A stretch of DNA of 64,000 nucleotides from positions 1 through 64,000 of the forward strand of contig BCJJ01000012.1 of the NCBI GenBank assembly GCA_039545355.1. Reading direction: 5' to 3'. Position 1 is the stretch's first letter; the number at the start of each line of letters is the position of its first letter. A model generated the notes under the pieces. That model did not search any database. It was not told the origin of the DNA and saw nothing but the letters and a program-made list of their open reading frames with translations. Source of the DNA: Trichosporon coremiiforme. Taxonomy: Eukaryota > Basidiomycota > Tremellomycetes > Trichosporonales > Trichosporonaceae. The position numbers and the translations under genes were made by a program. Shown piece after piece: positions 28 through 40,019 of this stretch.

Positions 28-2736
28 CGGCTGAGCGGCGTCCGCCTTCTTGCGCACCTCCTCGATACGCTGCGGCTCGCCGTGCTGCTTCTCAAACTTG
101 AGCCACCAGCCGTAGGCGTCTCCCCAGTCCGGATCGGCCGTGATCGCGTTCTGCATCCATTGTCGCGTCTTCTCGATCTTGCGCTCGGCCCAGAACAGAC
201 GCGCAACGGCCATGATGACGGCCGGGTGCTCGCCTGCCTTCTTCAGCGCATCGACGGAACGTCCCTTCCGCTGCTGAGGGTTTTCCATGAAGATGGCCAT
301 GGCCCAGAGCAGAGGCGAGGAGGGACATTCCTGCATTGCGCGGGACAGGACAGCCTTGGCTTGCTGCGTTGAGCCCGCGCGCTCCTCGATCTTGACTGTC
401 TCCGTCCACAGAACATCGTTCTTGGGGTTGTGCAGACGCGCCTTCTCGAGAAGTGAACGTGCCTTGATGACGACGCCGGCCTTCTCCTCCAGCCGGGCAG
501 AGAGGATCCACAACGGCACACTCTTGGGACAGGCGCGGCAACCCTGGGCGTACGCCTTGCGCGCGCCAGCGATGTCGCCCTTCTCCTCAAGCACCTGTCC
601 GCGGATCATGTGCAGCTTGTCGAATGACGGGAAGCGGCCAATAGCATCGTCGAGCGTCTTGAGAGCCTCGTCGAGCTTTCCGAGCTGTCGCTCCAGCACC
701 GCGCTCTTCATCCACACGCGCTCCGTGTCGGCCTGTCCGCGCGCCTTCTGCAGAATCTGTTGGGCCGCTTCCACCTCGTTCGTCTCGGCCGCAATCTTGG
801 CAGCAGCGAGGAAGATCGACTCGGAGTCCTCGTTCTGCTCGAAAGCGCGGGAGAGTACCTGCTGCGCACCGACGACGTCGCCACCGACCCATTTCTCCTT
901 GGCAGCCATAAGCCACAGCACCTCGGCGTGCGGGCAGTGCTCGGCTCCCTGGGCAAGGATCTCTTGCACCGCCTCTGGCGTGCCGTGCGCCTTCTCGAAC
1001 TCGGCCGCTTTGCGCCATACACTCGGCGAGTCGGGGAAGGACTCGATGAGCACAACGAACACGGCGCGCGCGACCTCGTAGAATCCGCCGAGGGCTGCGC
1101 GCTCCGCGTCCTCGAGCCAGACGGTCCGCCGGTCCTCCTCCTCGATGTCCAGGTGGATTGTGGCCTTCACGATCGCCTGGGCCGTGAGCGGGCTACCGTC
1201 GCGCTCGCACGCCTCGGCCTCCTGCAGCCACTGCTCGCGCGTAAGCACCGCCTGGTGCTTCGTCAAACTGCCGACAGCGAGCTTGATGAGACGGTCGACC
1301 TGGGCGGCAAGCTTCTTGCGCGCCGCCACGTCCTCCTCTGCGCTCGCATCCTTACTGACAGCGCTCGGGGACTGCTCTGCCAAACGTCCGGCGGCAATCC
1401 AGATCTCGTGACTCGTCGGAATCTTCTGTCGAGCGCTGTTAAGAACCTGCTTCGCCTTGTCGGGCGTCTCGAGACGGGCGAGCGTGAGCCAAAGCTCGAC
1501 GCTGGTGGGGATAACCTCGACGGCGCGCGTGAGGAGGATACGAGCGTCCTCAGGGTCGTCCTCGAGGTTGACGACCTCCTTCCACAGTCGAACCGAGTTG
1601 GGAATGAACTCAAGGGCCTTGCGCAGTACGCGGCGCTTCGCGTTCGGGTCAGCCTCGAGCGACGCAGCCTTGAGCCAGATCTTGACGGACTGCGGGACGT
1701 TCTCGACCGCGCGGGCCAGGATGCGCTTGGCGTTCTCAGGCGTGTTGAGCTCGGCAGCGTGGAACCACACGTCCTCGGACCGGGGACATTTCTCGCAACC
1801 CTCGGCGATGATCTTGCGTGCGGCAACCATCTTCTTCGCGTGCACCTCCAGCGATGCGGCAGCGATCCAGCCCGGGGCGTGCTTTGGGTTACTCTGGATA
1901 AGGTTCTGGAGCAGCTGGCGCGCCTGCTTGATGTCACCGATCTGCGCGTCGGTCTGCAGCACCTGCGAGTTGAGCGCCGTCATGTATCCTCGCGGGTCGA
2001 CCGAGGTGCTCGATCCGTTGGCAGCGTCGCCGGATGCCTGGTCGAGCTTCAGCGACAGAACACGGTCACGCGCTGTTCCCATAGCGACGAAGTCGGTCAT
2101 CGTACCGTCGGCATCGGCGGGTCCATCGTCAATCTCGCCCATAAGCTGCGTGCTGGCGGCGGCGCCGGCGAGCACCGAGTCGGAGACAGCATAAAGCTTG
2201 CCGTTCTGGTTCTCCTCCAGTCGGGGGTTCTGTTTCCGCCTCTTGCCGGTCATGTTGCCCGCCTCGGGGATGGCCTCCCAATCCTCATCCTTGAGCACGC
2301 TGAGTCCACGCTTCAAGTCTGCAAACTGCGTCTGGATTTTGGGATTGTTCGCCCTCTCCTTGGCGGCAGCTTCGGCCTCGGCAGCCTCGCGCTGCGCCTT
2401 CCTCCTCTCGTCCATGCGCGCGTCGACCGCGTCCCAGATCCGGTCCGCCTCCTCGTCATCCGCCTCGTACACCGTTCCAGCGAAGAGGTTGCGCTCGTCC
2501 TCCGGGTCTTGGAACTGGTCGGGGTCCGGAATCTCCTCGCCGCGCTTCGCCATCGCCTCCTGGATCGTCTCGGCTGACGGTCCCTCGCGCGCAGGACCGA
2601 TATCGGATCGAGTAGTGAATCCGCTCGCTCCACGTCCCAGACCCGCGACGTAGGATGCCGGGGCCTGCATGTTCAGGAAAGCATAGCGGTGCTCTTTCGG
2701 GATCGACCGCACCGTGCCGATGTGGTTGCCCGACAT
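1..2736 (-). CDS. PRP6: Pre-mRNA splicing factor Prp6 (Prp1 in fission yeast), 3' end replaced by telomere repeat
   Basis: Prp6 is a U5 snRNP protein that bridges U4/U6 and U5 in the tri-snRNP. One uninterrupted frame runs from an ATG in a CACCATG context (2736-2734) to the window edge, 912 codons. The N-terminus has the PRP1_N hallmark YVAGLGRGASGFTTRSDIG near residues 32-50. The rest is HAT/TPR repeats with the usual W..AA..E pattern (for example AELWLTLARLE-type helices and CPxSxxLWxxxAxLE). Full-length family members end about 30 residues after the HGxxxxxEEV helix. Here that helix (HGEPQRIEEVRKKADAA) is followed at once by residues encoded by telomere repeats, and no stop occurs before base 1. 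The gene is therefore truncated, or the locus is a chromosome-end variant. No intron is seen. It shares a 372-bp divergent promoter with CFD1. Confidence 0.93.
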   Translation of the reverse strand, partial: MSGNHIGTVRSIPKEHRYAFLNMQAPASYVAGLGRGASGFTTRSDIGPAREGPSAETIQEAMAKRGEEIPDPDQFQDPEDERNLFAGTVYEADDEEADRIWDAVDARMDERRKAQREAAEAEAAAKERANNPKIQTQFADLKRGLSVLKDEDWEAIPEAGNMTGKRRKQNPRLEENQNGKLYAVSDSVLAGAAASTQLMGEIDDGPADADGTMTDFVAMGTARDRVLSLKLDQASGDAANGSSTSVDPRGYMTALNSQVLQTDAQIGDIKQARQLLQNLIQSNPKHAPGWIAAASLEVHAKKMVAARKIIAEGCEKCPRSEDVWFHAAELNTPENAKRILARAVENVPQSVKIWLKAASLEADPNAKRRVLRKALEFIPNSVRLWKEVVNLEDDPEDARILLTRAVEVIPTSVELWLTLARLETPDKAKQVLNSARQKIPTSHEIWIAAGRLAEQSPSAVSKDASAEEDVAARKKLAAQVDRLIKLAVGSLTKHQAVLTREQWLQEAEACERDGSPLTAQAIVKATIHLDIEEEDRRTVWLEDAERAALGGFYEVARAVFVVLIESFPDSPSVWRKAAEFEKAHGTPEAVQEILAQGAEHCPHAEVLWLMAAKEKWVGGDVVGAQQVLSRAFEQNEDSESIFLAAAKIAAETNEVEAAQQILQKARGQADTERVWMKSAVLERQLGKLDEALKTLDDAIGRFPSFDKLHMIRGQVLEEKGDIAGARKAYAQGCRACPKSVPLWILSARLEEKAGVVIKARSLLEKARLHNPKNDVLWTETVKIEERAGSTQQAKAVLSRAMQECPSSPLLWAMAIFMENPQQRKGRSVDALKKAGEHPAVIMAVARLFWAERKIEKTRQWMQNAITADPDWGDAYGWWLKFEKQHGEPQRIEEVRKKADAAQPLRGLGGLGV

Positions 2737-3108
2737 GGTGAAGCGTCGGCTGTTGCCGTCAAGGTAGCCTCCGAGAGTAAGCTGAAGGTCGGCTCTGGTG
2801 TCGTCTGAAGTCGGGTGGCGCCTTTCGAGTCGTCCTTTTCGCGCTTTTTGACGTCGGATGCTCGTCGCTGGGCTCGAGATGGGGAAGAGTCTTGGATCAA
2901 CAACTGGGGAAGAAGCTTCGATCGCTGATGTCTGGTCGAGTTCAAGATCGGTTGGTGGCAAAGTGGGGCTCGAATAAACTTGGCCACGCGAGATAATTCG
3001 CCACCACCAGTGATGTCGACCTCTACCACAGAGGTTCGAGTCATTTCGGCCGGCTGACCAAGCATCCAGCGCCTCTCTCATCTCACTACTCACGTACCTC
3101 GACAGAAG
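2737..3108. promoter_or_regulatory. Divergent intergenic region, PRP6 / CFD1
   Basis: 372 bp separate the two start codons, so both promoters must share this space. No clear TATA box or long repeat was seen. Confidence 0.5.
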
Positions 3109-4234
3109 ATGAGCGACCAGCCGCTGTCCACGCCGGTCTCTAGGCGCCTTTCAAGCGTTAAGAACATCATCATCGTGCTTTCGGGCAAGGGTGCGTAGTC
3201 CCAACAAGCTCACAGATTGGTCAAGATCGAGCTGACCTCCAGGCGGTGTCGGCAAGTCCTCCTCTGCTGTCCAGCTCGCGCTCTCCCTTCTGAACACTGG
3301 CCCGAATGTGCGCGTAGGACTCCTCGATCTGGACCTGACTGGTCCCTCTCTCCCGCGCATGGTTGGGCTGGACGACCCGGGCGCGACAGTGAAGCAGTCC
3401 TCGGCTGGCTGGGTGCCCGTGTACGTGGACAAGGAGGGCCGGCTGGGCGTCATGTCGATCGGTTTCCTGCTCAAGAACCGCGGGGACAGTGTCGTCTGGC
3501 GCGGACCAAAGAAGGACGGCATGATCCGCCAATTCCTCCAAGAGGTCCGATGGGGCGACCTCGACTACCTCGTCATCGACACGCCGCCCGGAACGACGGA
3601 CGAGCACATCTCCCTCCTCACCCACTTGCACCCCCTGTTCACTCCTACAACTGCCAACCCGACGACACCGACTGCTGTCATGGTCACGACACCCCAGAAG
3701 ACGGCTATCAACGATACGATCAAGAGCGTGTCTTTCACGCGCAAACTTGGACTGCCCGTGCTCGGTGTGGTTGAGAACATGGCGGGATACGCGTGCCCGT
3801 GTTGCCACGAGATCAGCGCCTGTTTCGGCAAAGGAGGAGGAGAGGATATGGCCAAGGACCAAGGACTCGAGTTCCTCGGCAGTGTGCCGATTGACACGAA
3901 ACTGGTCGACCTCCTCGATGCAGTGAGCAAGGGCGAGGTACCCGGAGAAGGGGCAAGGGGGGAGGAGGCGAACGAGAGCGCGGCGGCGTCCAGCGCAGCA
4001 GCCGAGGCGACGACCGAGCAGACAGCGAAAGCGGGCCAGGAGGTCGAGGACGGTCAAGAGGTCAAGACGGTCAATGGCAGCAATGGTCACAAGGAGGCGT
4101 TCCCCCTCCTGGACCGGTACAACGAGACGACCTCGGCCCGGGTCTGGAAGGATATTGCGGGCAAGGCGGTTGATGACATCAACAGACGAAGGGGCAAGAT
4201 CAGCGCCAAGCTCCAGGCTCAGTCGGCTGCTTAG
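3109..4234 (+). CDS. CFD1: Cytosolic Fe-S cluster assembly scaffold ATPase Cfd1/NUBP2
   Basis: This is an Mrp/NBP35-family P-loop ATPase that forms a scaffold with Nbp35 and builds [4Fe-4S] clusters for cytosolic and nuclear proteins. Exon 1 is 3109-3190 and exon 2 is 3243-4234, with a 52-nt intron at 3191-3242 (GTGCGT...CTGAC...CAG) that splits a glycine codon inside the deviant Walker A motif SGKGGVGKSS. The spliced protein has 357 aa. Other motifs seen are [12 protein letters not shown] (Walker A'), [10 protein letters not shown] (switch II/Walker B) and MAGYACPCC, whose CPCC supplies the bridging cluster cysteines. The absence of the N-terminal four-Cys ferredoxin-like motif marks it as Cfd1 rather than Nbp35. 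Near the C-terminus an acidic, Ala-rich insert of about 50 residues ([12 protein letters not shown] onward) is longer than in the usual family members. Confidence 0.95.
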
Positions 4235-4984
4235 ACATAGATGGGATGTTGTATGCATAGTTTGATAGATCTTGCCCGCGCTTACCACTCGCCACCATGG
4301 AAGACTGGCATGCGAGTCAGGTGGAGAAGTCTGGCAAGGTGGGCAGCGATGGCGAAATAGGTGGTGTGAACGGGAAGACATGGTGATGAGAGAGGCGAGG
4401 GGTGGAGGTGATGGCCGCAACGTGGCAAAAGAATGCGGCCAGACGCTCCTACAGATTAAACAACCCAGATCGGCCTCTCCCATCTCGCTCGAACACGAGC
4501 TCCTCTGAAGCTAACGAGAGGGGCGGATCTGCGATGGTTAATCTGTGGGGGCGAGGGACCGCTGATCCACGCTTCACGGGAGCCTTAGCTGACTGCAGGC
4601 TTGAAAGCGGGTTTCGGGCGAGTCGGGGGCAAGAGGGGAAAGAGGGGGCTCGAGAGAGGGGGCTCGTGGCACAGGGAGATGTGGTGGGCGATAGGGGTGC
4701 TGGAAGGGAATTGGGGGACGTGGAAGTAGGAGGAGGAGAGGTGGACGTGGAGGTCGAGGTCACGGAGACGCTTGGACCCCGACGAACGCCTCATACCGCC
4801 TCACACCTGCCGCCAGGCCGCCAAGCGGCCGCTGAGACTTGAAGGGTTTTTGGCACCCGGGCGTACAGGCGTCGGGCTGCGGTGGGCTCGGCATCTCATC
4901 GTACACGTGCAACGCAATCGTCCTCGAGCCTAGCTCCGATCCAGACAGTGGCAATCTAATACATCTTAATGTGTCTATTCTAGC
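4235..4984. other. Convergent 3'-3' spacer, no gene seen
   Basis: This lies between the 3' ends of CFD1 and LHS1. It contains purine-rich runs around 4620-4770 (GGAGG/GTGGAGG tracts) but no ORF with coding character. Confidence 0.5.
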
Positions 4985-32206: not shown

Positions 32207-33896
32207 ATGGTCTCACCACCGCAGTCCATCAAGGACACACCCCGCCACTATGAGGAGTCGGATGACGGCCTCGCGCACACCTCTGTCAAGTCGCAGCTGA
32301 GTCACTGGCACGCGATTAAGGGTCGCGAGCACCGTCCGTTTGTCCGCAACATCATCCCGTCGTTCCGGTGGAAGACGCAGAAGAACTCGCCAAACGAGGT
32401 CGTCATCCACAACCCCATCAAGCTCCTCCGCTCCGTGCCCGCCAAGGGATGGCTCTACTTCCTCGTTGGTTGGTTCGCCTGGACCGTGAGTAGCCTTACT
32501 GGCAGCATCAGCTACCGCATCAGTAAACATTAGTGGAGCCCCGAGCTAACTGTCGCAGTGTGATGGTTTCGACTACTTCGCTGTCTCGGTCACGATGACG
32601 GACCTCGCCCACTACTTCGACAAGAGCAACTACGACATTTCGACTGCTATCACCCTCACACTCCTTTTCCGCTCCCTCGGAGCCTTCCTGTTCGGTATCG
32701 CCGCCGACCGCTTCGGCCGCAAGTGGACTCTTTTCGTGAACCTGCTCATGATTGCCGCACTCGAGCTCGGCTCCGGCTTCGTCCAGACTTACAGTGCCTT
32801 CCTCGGTGTCCGCTCCATCTTCGGTATCGTCATGGGCGGTATCTGGGGTACTTCAGCTGCTATTGCGCTCGAGAACGTCCCCCCGCATGCCCGTGGTCTC
32901 ATGTCCGGCATGATGCAGCAGGGTTACGCCGTCGGCTACCTCCTCGCCGCGTCTGTCGACTTCATCACGCCGCACAGCAAGTACGGCTGGCGCTGCGTCT
33001 ACTTCTTCGGTGCCGGCTTCTCTCTCCTCGCCGCTCTTCTCCGTCTTGTCGTCCCCGAGTCTCAGCAGTACATTGAGGCGCGCCAGCGTGCCAAGGCTGA
33101 GGCTCTTCCCGCCAAGGAGGCTACACGCCGCTTCGGCCGTGCGATCTGGGACATGCTCAAGACGAACTGGATCCGTGTCATCTGGGCCATCTGCTGCATG
33201 ACCGGCTTCAACTTCCTCTCCCACGGCTCCCAGGACCTCTACCCAACTTACCTGAAGGAGACCAAGCTTCTCAGCCCTGCCGTCACGAACCGTGCCGTCA
33301 TCATCTCCAACGTCGGCGCCGTGTGCGGAGGAACGATCGCCGGCTATCTGTCTCAGTACTCTGGACGTCGGCTCACTGGGCTGATCTTCCTGTGCATTAC
33401 TGCCGCGTTCATTCCTCTCTGGATCCTCCCCGGTAACTTCTCGGGTCTCGCCGCCGGCGGCTTCTGGATGCAGTTCGGTGTCCAGGGTGCCTGGGGTATT
33501 GTGCCCATCTACCTGTCCGAAGTCTCGCCCCCGTCTTTCCGTGCCCTCTTCGGTGGTCTCTCGTACCAGCTCGGTAACATGGCTTCGTCGGGTGCTGCCC
33601 AGATCGAGACCGACGCCGGTGCTAGCATTCAGATCCCCAATCCACGGAAACCCGGCGAGATGATGCCCGACTACGCGACCGTGCAGGGCATTCTGATCGG
33701 CGCCGTCATTGCCTGGCTCATGATCTTCCTCATCCTGGGACCCGAGGCCGACGGATCCCACTTCGAACACGCCAAGGCGGCCTACGAAGAGGGCGCCGGT
33801 AAGGAGACCGGAACCCGCCTTGTTCATGAGGACGAGTACATCCGCCGCGAGAGCCAGATGGACCGCGAGGAGCGTGAGGCGGAGAAGGCGGCTTAA
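32207..33896 (+). CDS. MFS monocarboxylate/H+ symporter, Jen1-like
   Basis: Plasma-membrane permease for lactate, pyruvate or other carboxylates (SHS/Jen1 branch of the MFS). Exon 1 is 32207-32485 and exon 2 is 32559-33896, with a 73-nt phase-0 intron (GTGAGT...CTAACTGTCGCAG). The product has 538 aa with a hydrophilic N-terminus of about 85 residues and a charged C-terminal tail. Family marks: FDYFAVSVTMTDLAHYFDKS, GAFLFGIAADRFGRKW (the MFS motif-A loop), GIVMGGIWGTSAAIALENVP, RGLMSGMMQQGYAVGYLLA and NFLSHGSQDLYPTYL. NFLSHGSQDLYPT closely matches the Jen1 signature NxxSHGSQDxxPT, whose His and Gln act in substrate transport. Substrate choice cannot be told from sequence alone. Confidence 0.92.
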
Positions 33897-34195
33897 GTGC
33901 GTTAAGCAAGCAGAGGGTTTCGGATCGTTTCAGTATCTTAAATCACAAAACTCAGTAATATCAGTCGCTTAATAATATGGCTGCGGTTAGCATGCCACTT
34001 GTACATCACTGAATGCAACGATAAGGCTAGCTGTGAGCTGCTGCATAGTCGACTGTGAAGCATGGAATCGTGTGCTTCGATAGACATCGACATCTCGTGA
34101 GGGTGTTTCTGTGGAGCAGTGATCGGCATCTTGGTAGGTGAAAGCCGCCGACCCTGGCAATCTCATGTCTCTCGGTGACTACCGCCTCCACTCCA
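33897..34195. other. 3' spacer of transporter and of the micro-exon locus
   Basis: Convergent end region. It may contain the last, mostly untranslated exon of the minus-strand micro-exon locus; no end point can be defined. Confidence 0.35.
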
Positions 34196-37100
34196 CTAAC
34201 AAACATACTCGACCCTCGTCATCGCGTTTCACTCACCAGATCTAGAAGCCAAGACAGCTCCACACAGGTACACTTCCGAGAGCTGCTTGGGCCCGTGTCA
34301 TTGCATTGCAGAAGCAAGCCAATAGGGCACGATAAGGAACGGGTGGAGCTGGCCGACACAGGGTCGAGAAATTCGCCGACAATCGCCCTCCTCGATTCGA
34401 GCACGGAATCCGTTTCAGTGGCTTCTTGCGTGGAGCGTCGCTTCGAGGACTGAAGAGTTGGCTCGACTACGCTGCATGGGTAGCTAGGTATGAACAGACT
34501 CACATCTGTGTTGCGGAATGATACGGTGCTGCTTGACAGCTTAAAATTGTCAGATGCTTCACAGCTAACTAACCAGAGAGGCTGACACAGCGATCTGCTA
34601 AGCAGCTCAGCAAGAGATGGCAGTGCTAGCTAACTCACCTTGAGTCGAGGTGGTGCCTGTGGGCAGTTCTTTCTTTCAGCTAACGCATCTTCATATGTCA
34701 GCTACTTACCTGGCTGCGCTGTTGGCGCCCTTCTTCCGAGGAAGAGCACAGAATAGGGGCTCAGAGACTGAATGTGAGCTTAACGACGCTCAACCAAGAT
34801 ACCTCGCCGACTTACTGTTCGACACTTGGCGCGAAGGCGTGTACCTGGTTGCTGAACAGCTTAGCGGGACCGATGTTGGAACTGGTCCTAACGCACATTG
34901 ATGTGTCAAAGCGGGAATCCTTCCAGCTGTCTGGTCGAATGGCCCAAGCAACGACAGTTTCGAAGTCCTCTGTGGGTGGGGGCGAACGTAACTGACCAGG
35001 CCCAGCGCGGTTATGGCCATGACAGTCGATGGCTGCCGCTGACGCGCATTTCCCAGCACGTACCTTAATTCTCAAAGTCGCGAATCTGCGATGGCATACC
35101 TCCAGTCCGCGACGGACAGCCCGCGGACGCTGGTGGAAGCTGTAGTCAGCTTAGATGTTCGTTGCCTTCGCTGACCTGTTCAAATGCCTGCAGTCAGTCC
35201 TGTCGTGAACCGCCGGCCCAACTCTACAGAAGCTTCGCCGTTGACATGCTCACCGCTCCTGCCGAGGAAGCTCACGACTGGATCCTGGGGTGAGCTCGGT
35301 TACAAATGGTCAGCTCACCTCCGTGAGCGATCATTTCGGTGGGTCTAGCTATCTGATTCCAGTAAGCGGTTCGCACTGATGCATGCCGCTCACGCCTGAC
35401 GTCTGAGTGTCAGTTTAGGAGCGTTTACGAAACTCACTGCGCGGAACTGCATTCGGTTTGGCTCTGGGACTGGGGTTCGCTACAGTGGAAGGTACTTTGT
35501 AGCTGACAGAAACGCCTGTGGGTCAGTTCGCTATATGGGCCAGCCAACTCAGGCCTCTGGATGGCATCGGTTCCCGGGAACCGACGAAATCATCACGGCC
35601 GAGGAGGGACTGGAAGCGCCACGGCTCGATCAGCTGTAGCCGCGCGAGGTAGCAGCAGACCGTAATATGGTGTTAGCTCGTCGCCGACGTATTGAGAGCT
35701 CACACTGCACTGTCCGAATTTCTGGCTGGTGATCAGCTTGGAATAGCCACTGGCGAGCTGCTTGCACTTTGGGAGTCGTACGCGTTAAGATGTCGTGGCG
35801 TGAGCAATGCGGTCTGGGAGTTAGCTGTGAGGACGTTTCGAGTAGTTTTCAAGTAAGCTGAGGTGTGGCTTGCCTCAATCGATGCCTCCTGACAGCTCGA
35901 GACGGTGGCCAACTGTGGATGAGTTAAACACAGAGGTTCCTCAGCTCATTCTTGCGCCATTGCTAGGACTCACAAGCAATGGCGATCTGTCTTGCGCGGG
36001 TACATGACTATCTGTAAAGTCAGCTGGCTTGGTGCATGGCGAAGCTGTTGACGCTTACCTGTTCGTCAGTTACTTCGAGGCGGCACAATCAACTCACCCT
36101 ACGAGACGCGACGCGATGACAGCGGCCGATGCTATCTACCGGGGCTGAGGAAGTTTGCTTGATGGCTCACCTGGCAGACCTGGATGTCAGGCTGTTAACA
36201 ACCCCACGCAGCCCATTCAGTGTCTCACTGTACTGGGCGCTAGCTAGTGGACGTCGACAGACAACTACCGGGTAACGTCTAATGTCTGATGCCAGTTCAT
36301 GTCAGTTGAGATAAACTTGCCTGTTGAGCCGACCGTTAGCTGGGAGGAGACGAGTGGTCTGAGCGTCAGCTAACGAGCACAGCCAATTTAGCTCCCCAAG
36401 CTCCCACGCGCTTTTCAACTGTTGTCTCCACCTGAGTAGTCAGCTTCAGAACGCTCTAGTGAGCTCACTGCTTCCGTCGGTCGTCTCAGTCGCGAGCCCA
36501 TGACCATCGCCGAACCTTCAGCGACACCAGTCCAGTAAATGTAACTCACAGAATCGTGGCAGCCCACACGCCACACGCAATCCTCAAGTAAGCTCAATCG
36601 AAGTCCTCTGTCGTCAGCGCCTGGACGTCAGTTACCACTGAGCGTACAACGACGTCCTGGTCGACAGCTGTGATCCACGGTGCATCAGCTTACGTCTCGT
36701 CCTGATGTCGTTCATGTCTACCACAAACTGAGCTCACCTCCGTTCCGGCTCTGGTTGACGCCGCGTCATCTGGGATAAGCTCCAAAAGCTTTTTAAAGCT
36801 TACCAGGACTCTGCCTGTCAGTTGTTGCGATTGTGGTGTAGCTCACGAGACCTCTGCCTCAGACTGCAGACTGTCAGTTTACCAAGCGCCGATTGAAAAG
36901 CTCACCACCCGTGCTGGTATCGGCTCTCCGCATGCAATGAGTAGCTCACTACTTCCGCTGTGCTGGATAGTTAGCTATCCCCCAGGGATATCAGCTCACA
37001 GCTCCGTCCTGCAGGTCAGCTTCTGTCCACCAGACCCAACTGACCTACTCCGAGCCCGGTAGCTGTTCTGGCGTGTCAAACTAACACTAACCGGTTGTAA

Positions 37101-38128
37101 GCTCACTGATCTGTCTGCTAGTTCTCGTTAGATCCAAGCACAACTCATTGAGGCATTGAGACACTGGCTCGCCTTGTGTGGCGGCAGGGTGAGGCGGACT
37201 CGTCGTCGCCTGTGGGTCAGTTGAAAAGCTCAAGCCCATAACTCACCGGACCATAACTCCATGTGCTGAGCGAGATGCAGTTCCGTAACGACGGGTTGGA
37301 ACCTATGCCCTGACATGTGTGGGAGGACGGGGGCGCAGGTGTCGATGATATGATCTCACAGCCAGAGCGGAGTCCTGGAACATCAGCTTCCAAAGGAGGG
37401 CCAGCTCTGCGTGTCAGTTCAAGAGAGTCTACTCGAACTCACAACTCAGTACGAGGTCCGCGGACCGCTGGACAGGGCGGTGGTTATGACTGTTAGAGAG
37501 GGCCCCTGGTCGTCAGCTGGGGGGAGCTCACCATCCCGTCGACCTCTGCCGCACGTCAGCTTTCCGCACAGCTGAAGAAGCTCGCGCGTATTGATTCTCA
37601 GCTATACCTCACTGCCAAATCTCACTGTAAATATCCTAAGCGGGGTGACTGAACAGTCAGCTTGCCGTGGGAGCGTGAGAGCGTGGAGCTCACACCAGGT
37701 CTGCGCGTCAGTTATGTTCGTGGGAAACGCGCAGCCTAACTGACTTCATAGCGGCTTTGCTGTTGGCACTGGCGTGTCAGCTGGAAATGAAGTGAGCAGC
37801 TTCTTACGGCTCTGATTGTCAGTTTCTCCGAGAGTTCGGACCAACTCACAAGCGCCGGATCTGAGCAGCGAGATCGAAGCACTGCCGCCGTTGACGGACC
37901 TGAACCCGCCTGTGGTCTGGGTGCTTTCGATGACGGGCTAATTTGCCTGCTGAGGGCGGTGTGGGTGTTGGAGCGATGGTGAGAGAAGAGGTCAAACCCA
38001 GTCAAGTGCGGGCGACGTGGAGTCCGCTCGGGGGCGTGGGAGAGGGGCGCAAGCGATGACGATCGTTCACCATGTTGCAGATCGACCTCCTCCGACGACC
38101 TCTGCTGTGCTGTGGTGGATGACAAAAC
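34196..38128 (-). CDS. Hyper-intronic micro-exon locus (about 35 introns in 3.7 kb)
   Basis: No long ORF exists here, but the minus strand is packed with complete intron signals: donors GTGAGC/GTGAGT/GTAAGC, branch sites CTGAC or CTAAC, acceptors CAG or TAG. The first units, in order of transcription, are introns 37812-37849, 37769-37807, 37701-37744, 37649-37693, 37546-37625 and 37506-37531. They delimit candidate exons of 4 nt (37808-37811), 24 nt (37745-37768), 7 nt (37694-37700), 23 nt (37626-37648) and 14 nt (37532-37545). About 35 donor-like sites follow down to 34236. Longer exons bracket the array: about 37850-38128 (open, Ser/Arg/Pro-rich) and 34237-34471 (235 nt, open). The exact chain and start codon are unresolved: the first open frame has an upstream TGA (38129-38131) and no in-frame ATG, and some micro-exon combinations meet stops while others stay open. 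It lies only about 50 bp downstream of the acyl-CoA dehydrogenase stop on the same strand, so it may be part of that transcript. Confidence 0.6.
36012..36097 (-). other. Two abutting introns with a zero-length exon
   Basis: On the minus strand, intron 36097-36059 (GTGAGTTG...CTGACGAACAG, 39 nt) ends exactly where intron 36058-36012 (GTAAGCGT...CTGACTTTACAG, 47 nt) begins. The junction reads CAG then GTAAGC with nothing between, the layout of a recursive (ratchet) splice site. It could equally be one 86-nt intron. Confidence 0.6.
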
Positions 38129-38174
38129 TCAATGCATTGGTTATGACTTCTCCCCTACGTCCTTACATCGCTGC

Positions 38175-40019
38175 TTACAACTTTGCGCTCTGCTGCGCCT
38201 CACGATCAAACGCAATCCGGTGGTCCCACTTGCTGACCTCCTTCCAGTCTCCACCCGCCCTCTTCTCGCCCTTGAGCGTACCAGCCACAAACCTCCGGGC
38301 ACACTCGGCAGCGACCGCGTCTCCGTCCCGCTGCGCATCGGCGAGGAGCAGCACAGCACACACAATGTCCCCGAGCGAATGGTACACGTATCGAGACAGA
38401 GAGAGTAGCTCCTCCTTCTCCTTCGGCAGGGCCTTGAACTGCTCCCACTGGCTCTTGATCTCCTTCTTCTCGCCGTCGAACCCGCGAACAGAGTCGAGGG
38501 TCGAGTTGATCCACCGGTCGAGGGCAGCAGTGACGTCGGCCCCCTGTCGGCCGGTGAGACACTTGACCGTGTCCGTGGCGAGGACGTCGGTGGTGCCCTC
38601 CCAGATAGAGAAGACGTTGGCATCACGGAAGATACGCGCGACGTTGATCTCGGGCGTCTCAAAGTTCTCCAAGTACCCGACACCGCCCAGCGCCTCCATG
38701 CACTCTTGCAGACCGTGAATACCGTGCTTTGTCGTGTACGCCTTGGCCACGGATGTGAGAATGCGGAGAAGAAGCTCTGCGTCCTTACCCTCAGGAACGA
38801 GGGGGTTGGGCGCATTAGCTTGGACACTGCCCAGCAGCGCGGCGAGGAAGAATGTCAGAAGCGTGTCAGCGCGATACCGCAGCGTCGTGGCCGCGAGCGT
38901 CTTGTTGAACAGCGGGATGGTCTTGAGTGCCGCCCCCGTCTTGGGGAACGTCCGGACACGAGAGAAGGCGCGGGCGATACCCAGCCCGCGGCCGAGGAAT
39001 CCGACCCCGCGCGCCGCATTGTGGAACCGCGTCACGTTCAGCACTGTCGCGATGACGGAGACGCCGCGGCCCTCCTCGCCGACGAGCCAGGCGCGCATGC
39101 CCTTGATCTCGAGTTCGGCAGTGGGCAGCGCCTTGGTCCCGAGCTTGTTCTTGAGACGCTGGATCTTGATGCCGTTCATTGCGCCGCCGGCCACGCGCGT
39201 CGGGGCGAAGAAACACGACAGGCCCTTCTCTGTCCAGGCCAGGACGAGGGCGCAGCCGCAGTCCGTCGCACTGGAGAACCACTTGAACCCGCTGATACTG
39301 TAGGGACCGAGCGGCAGCCCGTCGGCGTCCGTTCGGTCGTCGAGGCCGACCCAGGTCGCGAAGGTCTCGGTGCCGGAGACGTCCGACCCGCCCCGGCGCT
39401 CTGTCATCCACTGGCCTGAGGTCCAGGCGTTCTTGGGGTTGGTGTCGAGGAGGTGCGAGAGGGCCTGCTTGAACACTTTCGTGCGGGTGTCGACCATCTC
39501 CTTGGGCAGGGAGGAGGGCGGGGGACGTGAGAGCTCTGCGATGAGCACACTCGTCGCGCCGTCCTGCATGCCACTGGGGCAGACGACCATGGCGCTGCTG
39601 GCGCCCCAGAGGTGGATCTTGATGACCTGGACCACACGGGCGGAGCCGGCCAGATCCTTCGCGTATCCCGTCGCGACGACGCCGTTCTCCAGTCCAAAGT
39701 CCTGCAGCGCCTTCCATCCCGGAGACGTCACCAGCGCCGCAGAGTCTTTAGGCACGCCGAAGGAGTTGAACCCGTCTCCGTCGATGTAGGGCGGGTTCTT
39801 CTCTGCGTTCGTGACGTGGTTGAGGATCTCGGGGGTGAGGACCTCGGCGCCGAGAGTCGAGAGTTCCGAAGACACTTTGGAGAGTACGGAGGGAGGGATA
39901 AAGAGGGCGGACGCACGGCGCAGCGCGGCGTCCTCCTCCCACTGGTTCTGGACGACGGGGGTGGGCTGGAAGAAGCCCGTCGTGCTCGATGCCGCTTGGT
40001 GGGTCTGGGGTTTCGACAT
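38175..40019 (-). CDS. Peroxisomal acyl-CoA dehydrogenase, AidB-like
   Basis: 614 aa, single exon, ATG 40019, TAA 38175-38177. FAD-dependent dehydrogenase of the AidB-like branch. Motifs: SGQWMTERRGGSDVSG (about 201-216, the flavin/substrate loop), the C-terminal domain around LQECMEALGGVGYLENFETP, and RDANVFSIWEGTTDVLATD (catalytic-region and FAD-binding segment of the family). The C-terminus is QQSAKL, an AKL-type PTS1 that should direct it to peroxisomes. AidB-type enzymes have a long N-terminal part, as here (WEEDAALRRASALF). The natural acyl substrate is unknown. It is divergent from the GPI-type gene and lies next to the micro-exon locus. Confidence 0.9.
   Translation of the reverse strand: MSKPQTHQAASSTTGFFQPTPVVQNQWEEDAALRRASALFIPPSVLSKVSSELSTLGAEVLTPEILNHVTNAEKNPPYIDGDGFNSFGVPKDSAALVTSPGWKALQDFGLENGVVATGYAKDLAGSARVVQVIKIHLWGASSAMVVCPSGMQDGATSVLIAELSRPPPSSLPKEMVDTRTKVFKQALSHLLDTNPKNAWTSGQWMTERRGGSDVSGTETFATWVGLDDRTDADGLPLGPYSISGFKWFSSATDCGCALVLAWTEKGLSCFFAPTRVAGGAMNGIKIQRLKNKLGTKALPTAELEIKGMRAWLVGEEGRGVSVIATVLNVTRFHNAARGVGFLGRGLGIARAFSRVRTFPKTGAALKTIPLFNKTLAATTLRYRADTLLTFFLAALLGSVQANAPNPLVPEGKDAELLLRILTSVAKAYTTKHGIHGLQECMEALGGVGYLENFETPEINVARIFRDANVFSIWEGTTDVLATDTVKCLTGRQGADVTAALDRWINSTLDSVRGFDGEKKEIKSQWEQFKALPKEKEELLSLSRYVYHSLGDIVCAVLLLADAQRDGDAVAAECARRFVAGTLKGEKRAGGDWKEVSKWDHRIAFDREAQQSAKL

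Follow-up and report, generated by a model that had tools for sequence, protein, structure and literature searches.

The 64,000-nt window analysed here, positions 1 to 64,000 of contig BCJJ01000012.1 in assembly GCA_039545355.1 of the basidiomycete yeast Trichosporon coremiiforme, is the start of a contig that we call C12 (contigs and loci carry our own C and L numbers) in a 42.0-Mb assembly of 134 contigs. On its minus strand, in the space that separates an acyl-CoA dehydrogenase gene from a convergent transporter gene, lies a hyper-intronic array of about 30 predicted introns, separated by exons as short as 4 nt (Table 1). Our best explanation, to which we assign a probability of about 60%, is a long noncoding RNA with many introns. 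It would belong to a class of such RNAs in this Trichosporonales-like genome, in which the density of splicing is maintained and the sequence is not.

Introns were predicted with a splice model that scores donor, branch, acceptor and length and was built from 134 strict introns of other loci in the same genome, 30 of the source loci having been chosen beforehand by intron pattern. The same form is seen in nine introns of coding regions whose position is shared by both copies. On the minus strand of 34101-38190, the best chain consists of 30 non-overlapping introns with a score of 446, against a mean of 21.5, a maximum of 64.6 and at most 9 introns in 100 dinucleotide shuffles of the array. The count stayed at 30 under four cost settings, and weak signals are confined to two introns, 36233-36333 and 37106-37172, the latter having a GC donor. 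An earlier note on this DNA, made from the letters of the window, had placed the density of splice signals many times above that of the well-supported genes of the window, and a high density was borne out: the best background scores were 70.9, 65.1 and 48.6 among 72 4-kb windows, read on both strands of the window and the 30-kb partner region described below with the array locus and its partner left out. The introns measure 34-120 nt (median 40.5, most of them 34-50), and the internal exons 4-473 nt (median 25), with 16/29 shorter than 30 nt and 8/29 no longer than 9 nt, which gives approximately 15 introns per kb of internal exon. The hyper-intronic locus with micro-exons described in that note was therefore recovered, as was its dense minus-strand array, although the number of splice sets falls from about 35 to 30. 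Among the first exons, for which 4, 7, 14, 23 and 24 nt had been claimed, the chain gives 4, 24, 7, 23 and 63 nt; the 14-nt exon is absent, its stretch being taken as one 120-nt intron. The long exon near the 3' end is present, but by eye it measures 213 nt (34449 to the GTGAGT at 34236) instead of 235.

Within 34196-38128, the minus strand has 13 matches to the strict pattern GT[AG]AG[CT]...CT[AG]AC...[CT]AG and the plus strand has none; elsewhere 155 were counted in 208 kb over both strands, although 30 of the loci in this set had been selected for holding one. Donor, branch, acceptor and length of the array introns resemble those of coding introns, in agreement with the proposal that the signals are those of ordinary genes of this genome, with some shift at donor positions +6 and +7. 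The CAG lies mostly 2-4 nt past the branch CTRAC, and the consensus is asymmetric, again as in coding-gene introns. Under the splice model, which is looser than this pattern, the plus strand yields 10 introns with a score of 80.9, above the minus-strand shuffle maximum, and the near-palindromic donor/branch pair GTGAGCT/AGCTGAC may be the cause. The DNA of 35000-37900 has a single match in the genome, which is itself, and no self-match pointing to internal duplication was found in the array.

Table 1. Features of the array locus. Intron rows are best-chain predictions of the splice model, with the score of each intron; the possible terminal intron exceeds the length that the model allows.
Feature	Position	Strand	Score or basis
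Hyper-intronic array (dense part 34450-37849)	34196..38128	-	splice-model chain and strict-pattern count
Intron 1, 38 nt, first donor	37812..37849	-	29.8
Intron 2	37769..37807	-	23.8
Intron 3, GTCAG donor	37701..37744	-	24.0
Intron 4	37649..37693	-	30.0
Intron 5, 120 nt, may be two introns	37506..37625	-	25.9
Intron 6	37407..37442	-	29.8
Intron 7	37210..37246	-	29.8; 76% match to partner copy over 46 nt (37178-37223)
Intron 8, weak, GC donor	37106..37172	-	13.2
Intron 9	37009..37044	-	27.9; 36992-37046 matches partner copy at 77% over 56 columns
Intron 10	36963..36999	-	29.6
Intron 11	36864..36905	-	25.2
Intron 12	36811..36846	-	30.3
Intron 13	36657..36693	-	24.7
Intron 14	36608..36647	-	23.0
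Intron 15	36432..36468	-	31.2
Intron 16	36359..36407	-	21.8
Intron 17, weak	36233..36333	-	12.1
Intron 18	36180..36228	-	19.6
Intron 19	36059..36097	-	29.8
Intron 20	35516..35585	-	18.5
Intron 21	35470..35507	-	19.7
Intron 22	35403..35437	-	29.8
Intron 23	35353..35393	-	16.2
Intron 24, GTGAGCT...AGCTCAC perfect inverted repeat	35285..35318	-	26.2
Intron 25	35188..35275	-	22.6
Intron 26	35140..35175	-	25.1
Intron 27	34768..34815	-	21.0
Intron 28	34595..34638	-	17.0
Intron 29	34529..34569	-	20.6
Intron 30	34450..34503	-	17.7
Possible terminal intron, 256 nt	33981..34236	-	GTGAGT donor and GCTAACCGCAG end, both in partner copy (by eye)
Upstream gene, acyl-CoA dehydrogenase with AidB N-terminal domain, 614 aa, single exon	38175..40019	-	
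Convergent gene, MFS (sugar-type) transporter, last long open reading frame	32550..33896	+	
ATGCAT poly(A)-type motif, 37 nt past dehydrogenase stop, kept in partner copy	38132..38137	-	
60-nt noncoding block, 95% identical to partner (20-nt bins)	33960..34019	.	ATGHAH-type motif per strand

The genome holds a second copy of the region, with which the array could be compared. Window positions 3829-50611 are collinear with 64000-93999 of contig C6, the aligned pieces having roughly 70-90% DNA identity, and a DNA search places the partner of the dehydrogenase gene there at 82%. Judged from the partner regions C12/C6, C5/C17, C3/C1 and C1/C25, the genome is probably a hybrid (allodiploid) or duplicated one. 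Within this 30 kb of collinearity, the array interval measures 3.83 kb in the window and about 0.98 kb in the partner. The partner interval aligns at its ends, and its interior matches only in short pieces, the two longest of which (46 and 56 columns; E 5e-4 and 4e-5) touch predicted introns and stand in reversed order. Even so, the partner stretch carries 6 introns on the same strand with a score of 95.6, against a maximum of 32.7 in 200 shuffles. Splice score per kb is nearly equal in the dense parts (130 in the window, 123 in the partner) and similar over wider stretches (113 and 96).

Between the copies, the dehydrogenase protein is identical at 574/614 residues, and fourfold sites are identical at 155/325, so that unconstrained DNA should be close to saturated. 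When the array was mutated at random to 90, 80, 70, 60 and 48% identity (means of 40 trials per level), it kept 66, 28, 12, 7 and 3 units per kb, and the maxima among random 780-nt windows of the array at these levels were 126, 83, 66, 30 and 14. Since the partner retains 123 units per kb with its neutral sites near saturation, and the mutated array keeps 12 at 70%, a mere leftover hardly fits, and the dense splice signals appear to be kept or renewed by something. The earlier note had asked whether splice sites decay in a relative; single sites being unalignable, the check was run on density, and density is kept in the partner copy. In protein comparison, the best named relatives of the dehydrogenase are in Vanrija humicola (58%) and Cutaneotrichosporon (about 55%), with others at 88-93%, which points to Trichosporonales.

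The coding potential of the array was assessed through stop codons, codon bias and protein relatives. Penalised stops cost the array 70 score units, within the 49-106 of 15 exon-shuffled versions. This graded comparison is the telling one, because a stop-free chain over 34441-37860, which does not exist among the candidate introns, is missing from 15/15 shuffled versions as well. Among six-intron segments, 2/13, which overlap each other, gave p = 0.049, and the others p >= 0.098. Codon-bias sums of the frame-aware readings were -41, -5 and 0; in the seed sample described below, the loci with a significantly open frame (L006, L013, L017 and L019) reached +57 to +241. The coding control L019 reads through 8/8 introns with 908 aa in frame, and its segments lose nothing (p at the floor, 0.024). 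At E <= 1, no relatives were found for the 222-aa frame-aware reading among 613 word-sharing candidates or for the 136-aa open reading frame among 51, and neither has a Pfam match.

The power of these tests is limited, as L035, L029, L015 and L007 have positive codon sums with stops that are not significant. Under the whole-array frame test, every hyper-intronic locus tried looked noncoding, yet part of L042 proved to be coding; because the whole-array test had missed it, coding controls were used with two further measures, a test by segments and a codon score. In L042, 8/8 introns are in frame (segment p 0.024 and 0.049), and the protein aligns with that of its partner L014, which was recognised as coding through this alignment only. 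L042 (C3:2211000-2215500, minus) and L014 (C1:982367-985403) hold a protein gene that evolves fast, has 8 introns within about 1.6 kb and a C-terminal motif GWRAVLKGLGF, and matches no Pfam family. By eye, a neighbouring gene has GWKGVLRELGF, and a tandem family is possible.

The array exons are thus probably noncoding, while a protein product is still conceivable, as another intron-dense gene of this genome codes. A micro-exon gene for a fast-evolving, perhaps secreted protein, with some exons misplaced in the chain, would account for the predicted micro-exons, for a stop-poor middle of the array and for a last stretch of the partner copy whose frame, judged by eye, continues to the kept 3' end, and the case of L042 and L014, the latter failing the same coding tests, lends it some further weight. 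We nevertheless consider such a gene unlikely, given a stop cost within the shuffled range, codon sums at or below zero, no relatives or domains and no alignable protein seen between the array and its partner, unlike L042 and L014. The likeness to schistosome micro-exon genes and aphid bicycle genes that the earlier note had drawn for a protein product is disfavoured on the same grounds.

A second question is whether the array belongs to an RNA of its own or to the tail of its neighbour. The ATGCAT that follows the dehydrogenase stop is the most prominent form of the Cryptococcus poly(A)-associated motif (PMC3990503). Motifs of this class are common, with 10 on the minus strand of 4.3 kb, and one alone is weak evidence; in the partner stretch there are only 2, both at kept places. 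Alignment between the copies is lost soon past the kept ATGCAT, and together these two features favour a separate array transcript and suggest that the dehydrogenase messenger RNA ends before the array begins. At the other end, the conserved 60-nt block has ATGHAH-type poly(A) motifs at 34006 (minus) and 34013 (plus), and it may be the 3' end of the transporter messenger RNA, of the array transcript or of both. ARAGORN calls a tRNA-Gly at 39007-39097 inside the dehydrogenase coding region, which is probably a false call.

An intron-rich 3' untranslated tail of the dehydrogenase gene, with a read-through form that would perhaps be a target of nonsense-mediated decay, accordingly seems rather improbable. 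The array does lie on the dehydrogenase strand directly downstream of the stop in both copies, the L046 array (C5) is also close behind a same-strand gene, and introns in 3' untranslated regions are known from Cryptococcus (1,025; PMC3990503). The kept ATGCAT and the early loss of alignability argue in the other direction, as do L059 and L061, where no same-strand gene was called just upstream of the arrays.

Comparable arrays occur elsewhere in the genome. A seed sample was formed from 30 loci, the first of 401 strict-pattern matches, covering contig C1 and 0.86 Mb of C2. At least 3 introns were predicted in 28/30, and 14 of these, representing 10 distinct loci, have at least 8 introns in 1.5 kb. 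Both tests call L013 coding, and another of the 10, L014, is paired with the coding L042; the remaining eight (L008, L020/21, L022, L023, L024/25, L026, L027/28 and L032/33) have codon sums below 0 and stops at about chance (p 0.19-0.87), although one or another of them may code too, since L014 fails the same tests. The most extreme of the eight, around L022, has 40 introns in 5.6 kb and a score of 739. Three clusters fetched on purpose, L042-L044, contain 18, 15 and 17 introns. Scaling from eight loci in 3.3 of 42 Mb suggests around 100 array-like loci genome-wide, a crude estimate and not a count. The most extreme array seen is that of L045 (C1:2036178 on), with 38 introns in 3.4 kb at 1565-4805. 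L024 (C1:2194538-2197576) and L057 (C4, about 955-961 kb) adjoin apparently the same transposase gene, presumably of Tc1/mariner type, with an identical 110-aa stretch.

Further partner pairs repeat the behaviour of the window array. L044 (C5) and L050 (C17) are minus-strand arrays; the first packs 13 introns into 1.4 kb and the second 16 into 2.4 kb, and their scores of 245 and 295 compare with shuffle maxima of 32 and 51 (100 shuffles each). Both lie between a PDZ-domain gene, which we take to be PSMD9-like, and a convergent ApoO-family gene; their flanks align at 80-91%, and their middles (1.26 and 2.44 kb) match only in pieces of 40 and 18 nt. L064 (C1) and L065-L066 (C25) have 8 and 11 introns on the same relative strand with nearly unalignable middles, scoring 154 and 179 against shuffle maxima of 34 and 28 (100 shuffles each). 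L059 and L060 possibly form another pair, with 15 and 10 introns on the same strand and 46 bases in common. The C5, C1 and L059 arrays entered the analysis through the intron pattern, whereas the window array, its partner and the C17, C25 and L060 arrays are independent of it.

These pairs bear on the possibility that the array is what remains of a protein gene, hyper-intronic like L042/L014, that is dead in both copies. Such protein genes exist in the genome, and noncoding exons would suit a dead one. However, splice signals should decay along with the frame and are similarly dense in both copies, the array signals are denser than those in the coding loci of the seed sample, and the death of a gene with its signals kept would be required in three partner pairs. 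We regard such a relic as quite improbable.

Donor and branch sequences were found to vary together. Complementary pairs recur, GTGAGCT with AGCTGAC and GTGAGTT with AACTGAC, and in coding introns as well as in arrays, donor +6/+7 and branch -1/-2 covary in the manner of Watson-Crick pairs. Among 145 matches to the intron pattern, donors with C at +6 have G before the branch in 85 cases and A in 12, and donors with T have G in 22 and A in 18 (p = 7e-5); for matches of up to 46 nt, the usual intron size, the counts are 70 G and 5 A with C, and 10 G and 17 A with T (p = 1e-8). An intron's own donor and branch also proved more complementary than swapped pairs; p is 0.021 for the 25 introns of this array (0.0036 for +6/+7 alone), 0.0002 for 187 introns of all arrays and 0.010 for 61 coding introns. 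Since U1 snRNA pairs with neither C at donor +6 nor T at +7, a short stem between donor and branch is a natural reading. The stem would mark each intron as a unit, as micro-exons require. Pooled array introns favour GTGAGCT (+6 C 75%, +7 T 81%) and coding introns +6 T (62%), a contrast biased by the many arrays picked by a GTGAGCT pattern. T at donor +6 is found in 10/25 introns of the window array, 4/5 of its C6 partner and 2/30 of C17, C25 and L060 together, none of these last having been selected by the +6 letter; the introns of one locus may share an origin or rules.

That the array is a DNA-level or mutational feature, a set of inverted-repeat units (GTGAGCT...AGCTGAC) laid down by insertion or copying whether spliced or not, would fit the covarying, nearly inverted-repeat donors and branches, the locus-specific share of T at +6 and the diverged internal duplications seen in 2/6 other arrays tried (L045, in multi-intron stretches, and L057), but it is very improbable, as the asymmetric consensus and CAG spacing match coding-gene introns and the array has neither a self-match nor a second genomic match for 35000-37900.

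Several observations weigh against a noncoding RNA as well. The middle of the array, about 37103-36333, can be read nearly without stops, corresponding to the two segments at p = 0.049. The hyper-intronic gene L042 is coding, and its partner L014 fails both the stop test (segment p 0.12 and 0.15) and the codon test (sum -14), which means that a protein that evolves fast can escape them. Compared one intron at a time, the array and its partner are no more alike than unrelated arrays (best 56, against 58 for the latter), and the orthology of the two therefore rests on position, strand and ends. The partner region of L061, covered in part (L062), has 0 and 1 intron, and a search with the array DNA found no usable partner for L022 or L043. 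Covariation is not seen in matches longer than 46 nt (p = 0.21), some of which may join sites of two introns, and the simple +6/-1 table for this array alone gives p = 0.19.

A noncoding RNA would nevertheless draw together what was computed: the array, its strand, the lack of a coding signal, a partner with the density but not the sequence, and other such loci. Transcription and splicing of the array are predicted from its signals. The gene would be read on the minus strand, and its precursor RNA would be cut by about 30 introns, mostly of 34-50 nt, each recognised as a unit by intron definition, with complementary donor and branch motifs perhaps helping to match the right two sites across exons down to 4 nt. 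Selection may act on splicing density itself, most simply if splicing shields an otherwise unprotected RNA from nuclear decay. This protective role is proposed because introns act cumulatively on messenger RNA level in Cryptococcus, where intron removal lowers most of the messenger RNAs tested and both number and position count (Pab2/Xrn2/Rrp44; PMC3744415). An RNA without protecting ribosomes might depend on splicing even more than a messenger RNA. Its biological effect may lie in transcription, or in the presence of RNA in the intergenic space, and one possible role is transcription toward the end of the convergent transporter gene.

A wider reading, which we hold only tentatively and think doubtful, is that a genome-wide class of perhaps a hundred loci is conserved for being spliced and for nothing in its sequence. 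Place, strand and intron density would then persist between subgenomes, and the sequence of exons and introns would be replaced to the point of saturation. Splicing itself would be the product, through RNA licensing, exon-junction loading or the excised introns, and donor-branch pairing would be the device that makes exons of 4-25 nt workable.

Among known systems, schistosome micro-exon genes and aphid bicycle genes have chains of very small exons, evolve fast and encode secreted proteins; the chain of micro-exons is similar here, and the array differs in having no coding signal. Introner elements are many gained introns that are copies of each other, some with terminal repeats at splice sites. 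They were rejected for the array, which has no self-match, one genome match for 35000-37900 and no likeness detected among its introns beyond their ends. Host genes of small nucleolar RNAs (snoRNAs) combine noncoding exons with many introns. This candidate was likewise set aside: Rfam gave no match in the window at the gathering threshold and none at E <= 1 over 33.9-38.18 kb, and most introns, at 34-50 nt, are short for a snoRNA. In 14 other loci, Rfam recovered only two tRNAs, in 2 of the loci, although diverged fungal snoRNAs could escape such a search.

Closer likenesses come from fungi. Micro-exons are reported in protein genes, such as Xlr2 of Trichoderma virens (PMC11121469) and the Phanerochaete P450 genes (PMC1184071), which share the very small exons and differ in that they are, apparently, protein genes. 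The intron-dependent expression of Cryptococcus neoformans offers a reason to keep introns, but was shown for protein genes. In SCANR, RNA interference arises in Cryptococcus from stalled spliceosomes on inefficiently spliced, typically transposon-derived RNAs (PMC5851062); intron signals are similarly tied to the fate of an RNA, whereas most array introns have strong signals. In C. neoformans, the positions of introns in untranslated regions are far less conserved than those of coding-sequence introns (PMC5006051), a precedent for turnover, although within messenger RNAs and not in intron-saturated noncoding loci. The nearest counterparts are the C. neoformans miscRNAs, 765/1,197 of which have introns and/or are counted as spliced, with 1,434 introns in all (PMC3990503). 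They too belong to a basidiomycete yeast, can be spliced, lack obvious coding capacity and have exons down to 1 bp, but they carry about 2 introns each, against about 30 in 3.4 kb here.

In the open-access papers searched, as covered by titles and abstract openings, we found no intron-saturated noncoding gene in fungi, no conserved intron density with unconserved sequence and, apart from a study of intron structures in Saccharomyces cerevisiae (PMC12350175), no donor-branch pairing in fungi; nothing relevant was found on Trichosporon intron numbers. A 2018 review of Cryptococcus introns described miscRNA introns as identified, with their function, splicing and conservation unstudied at that time (PMC5851062). 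The arrays described here allow conservation to be measured inside one genome, with density kept and sequence lost, so that one can test directly whether the splicing of a noncoding RNA is selected for its own sake. Donor-branch covariation, should it be borne out in introns with RNA support, would be a simple rule defining very short introns. Gene annotation geared to coding exons may overlook such genes or predict false proteins within them. Spliced noncoding RNAs are thus already known from a basidiomycete yeast; what the present locus would add to them is saturation with introns and a density of splicing that is kept without the sequence.

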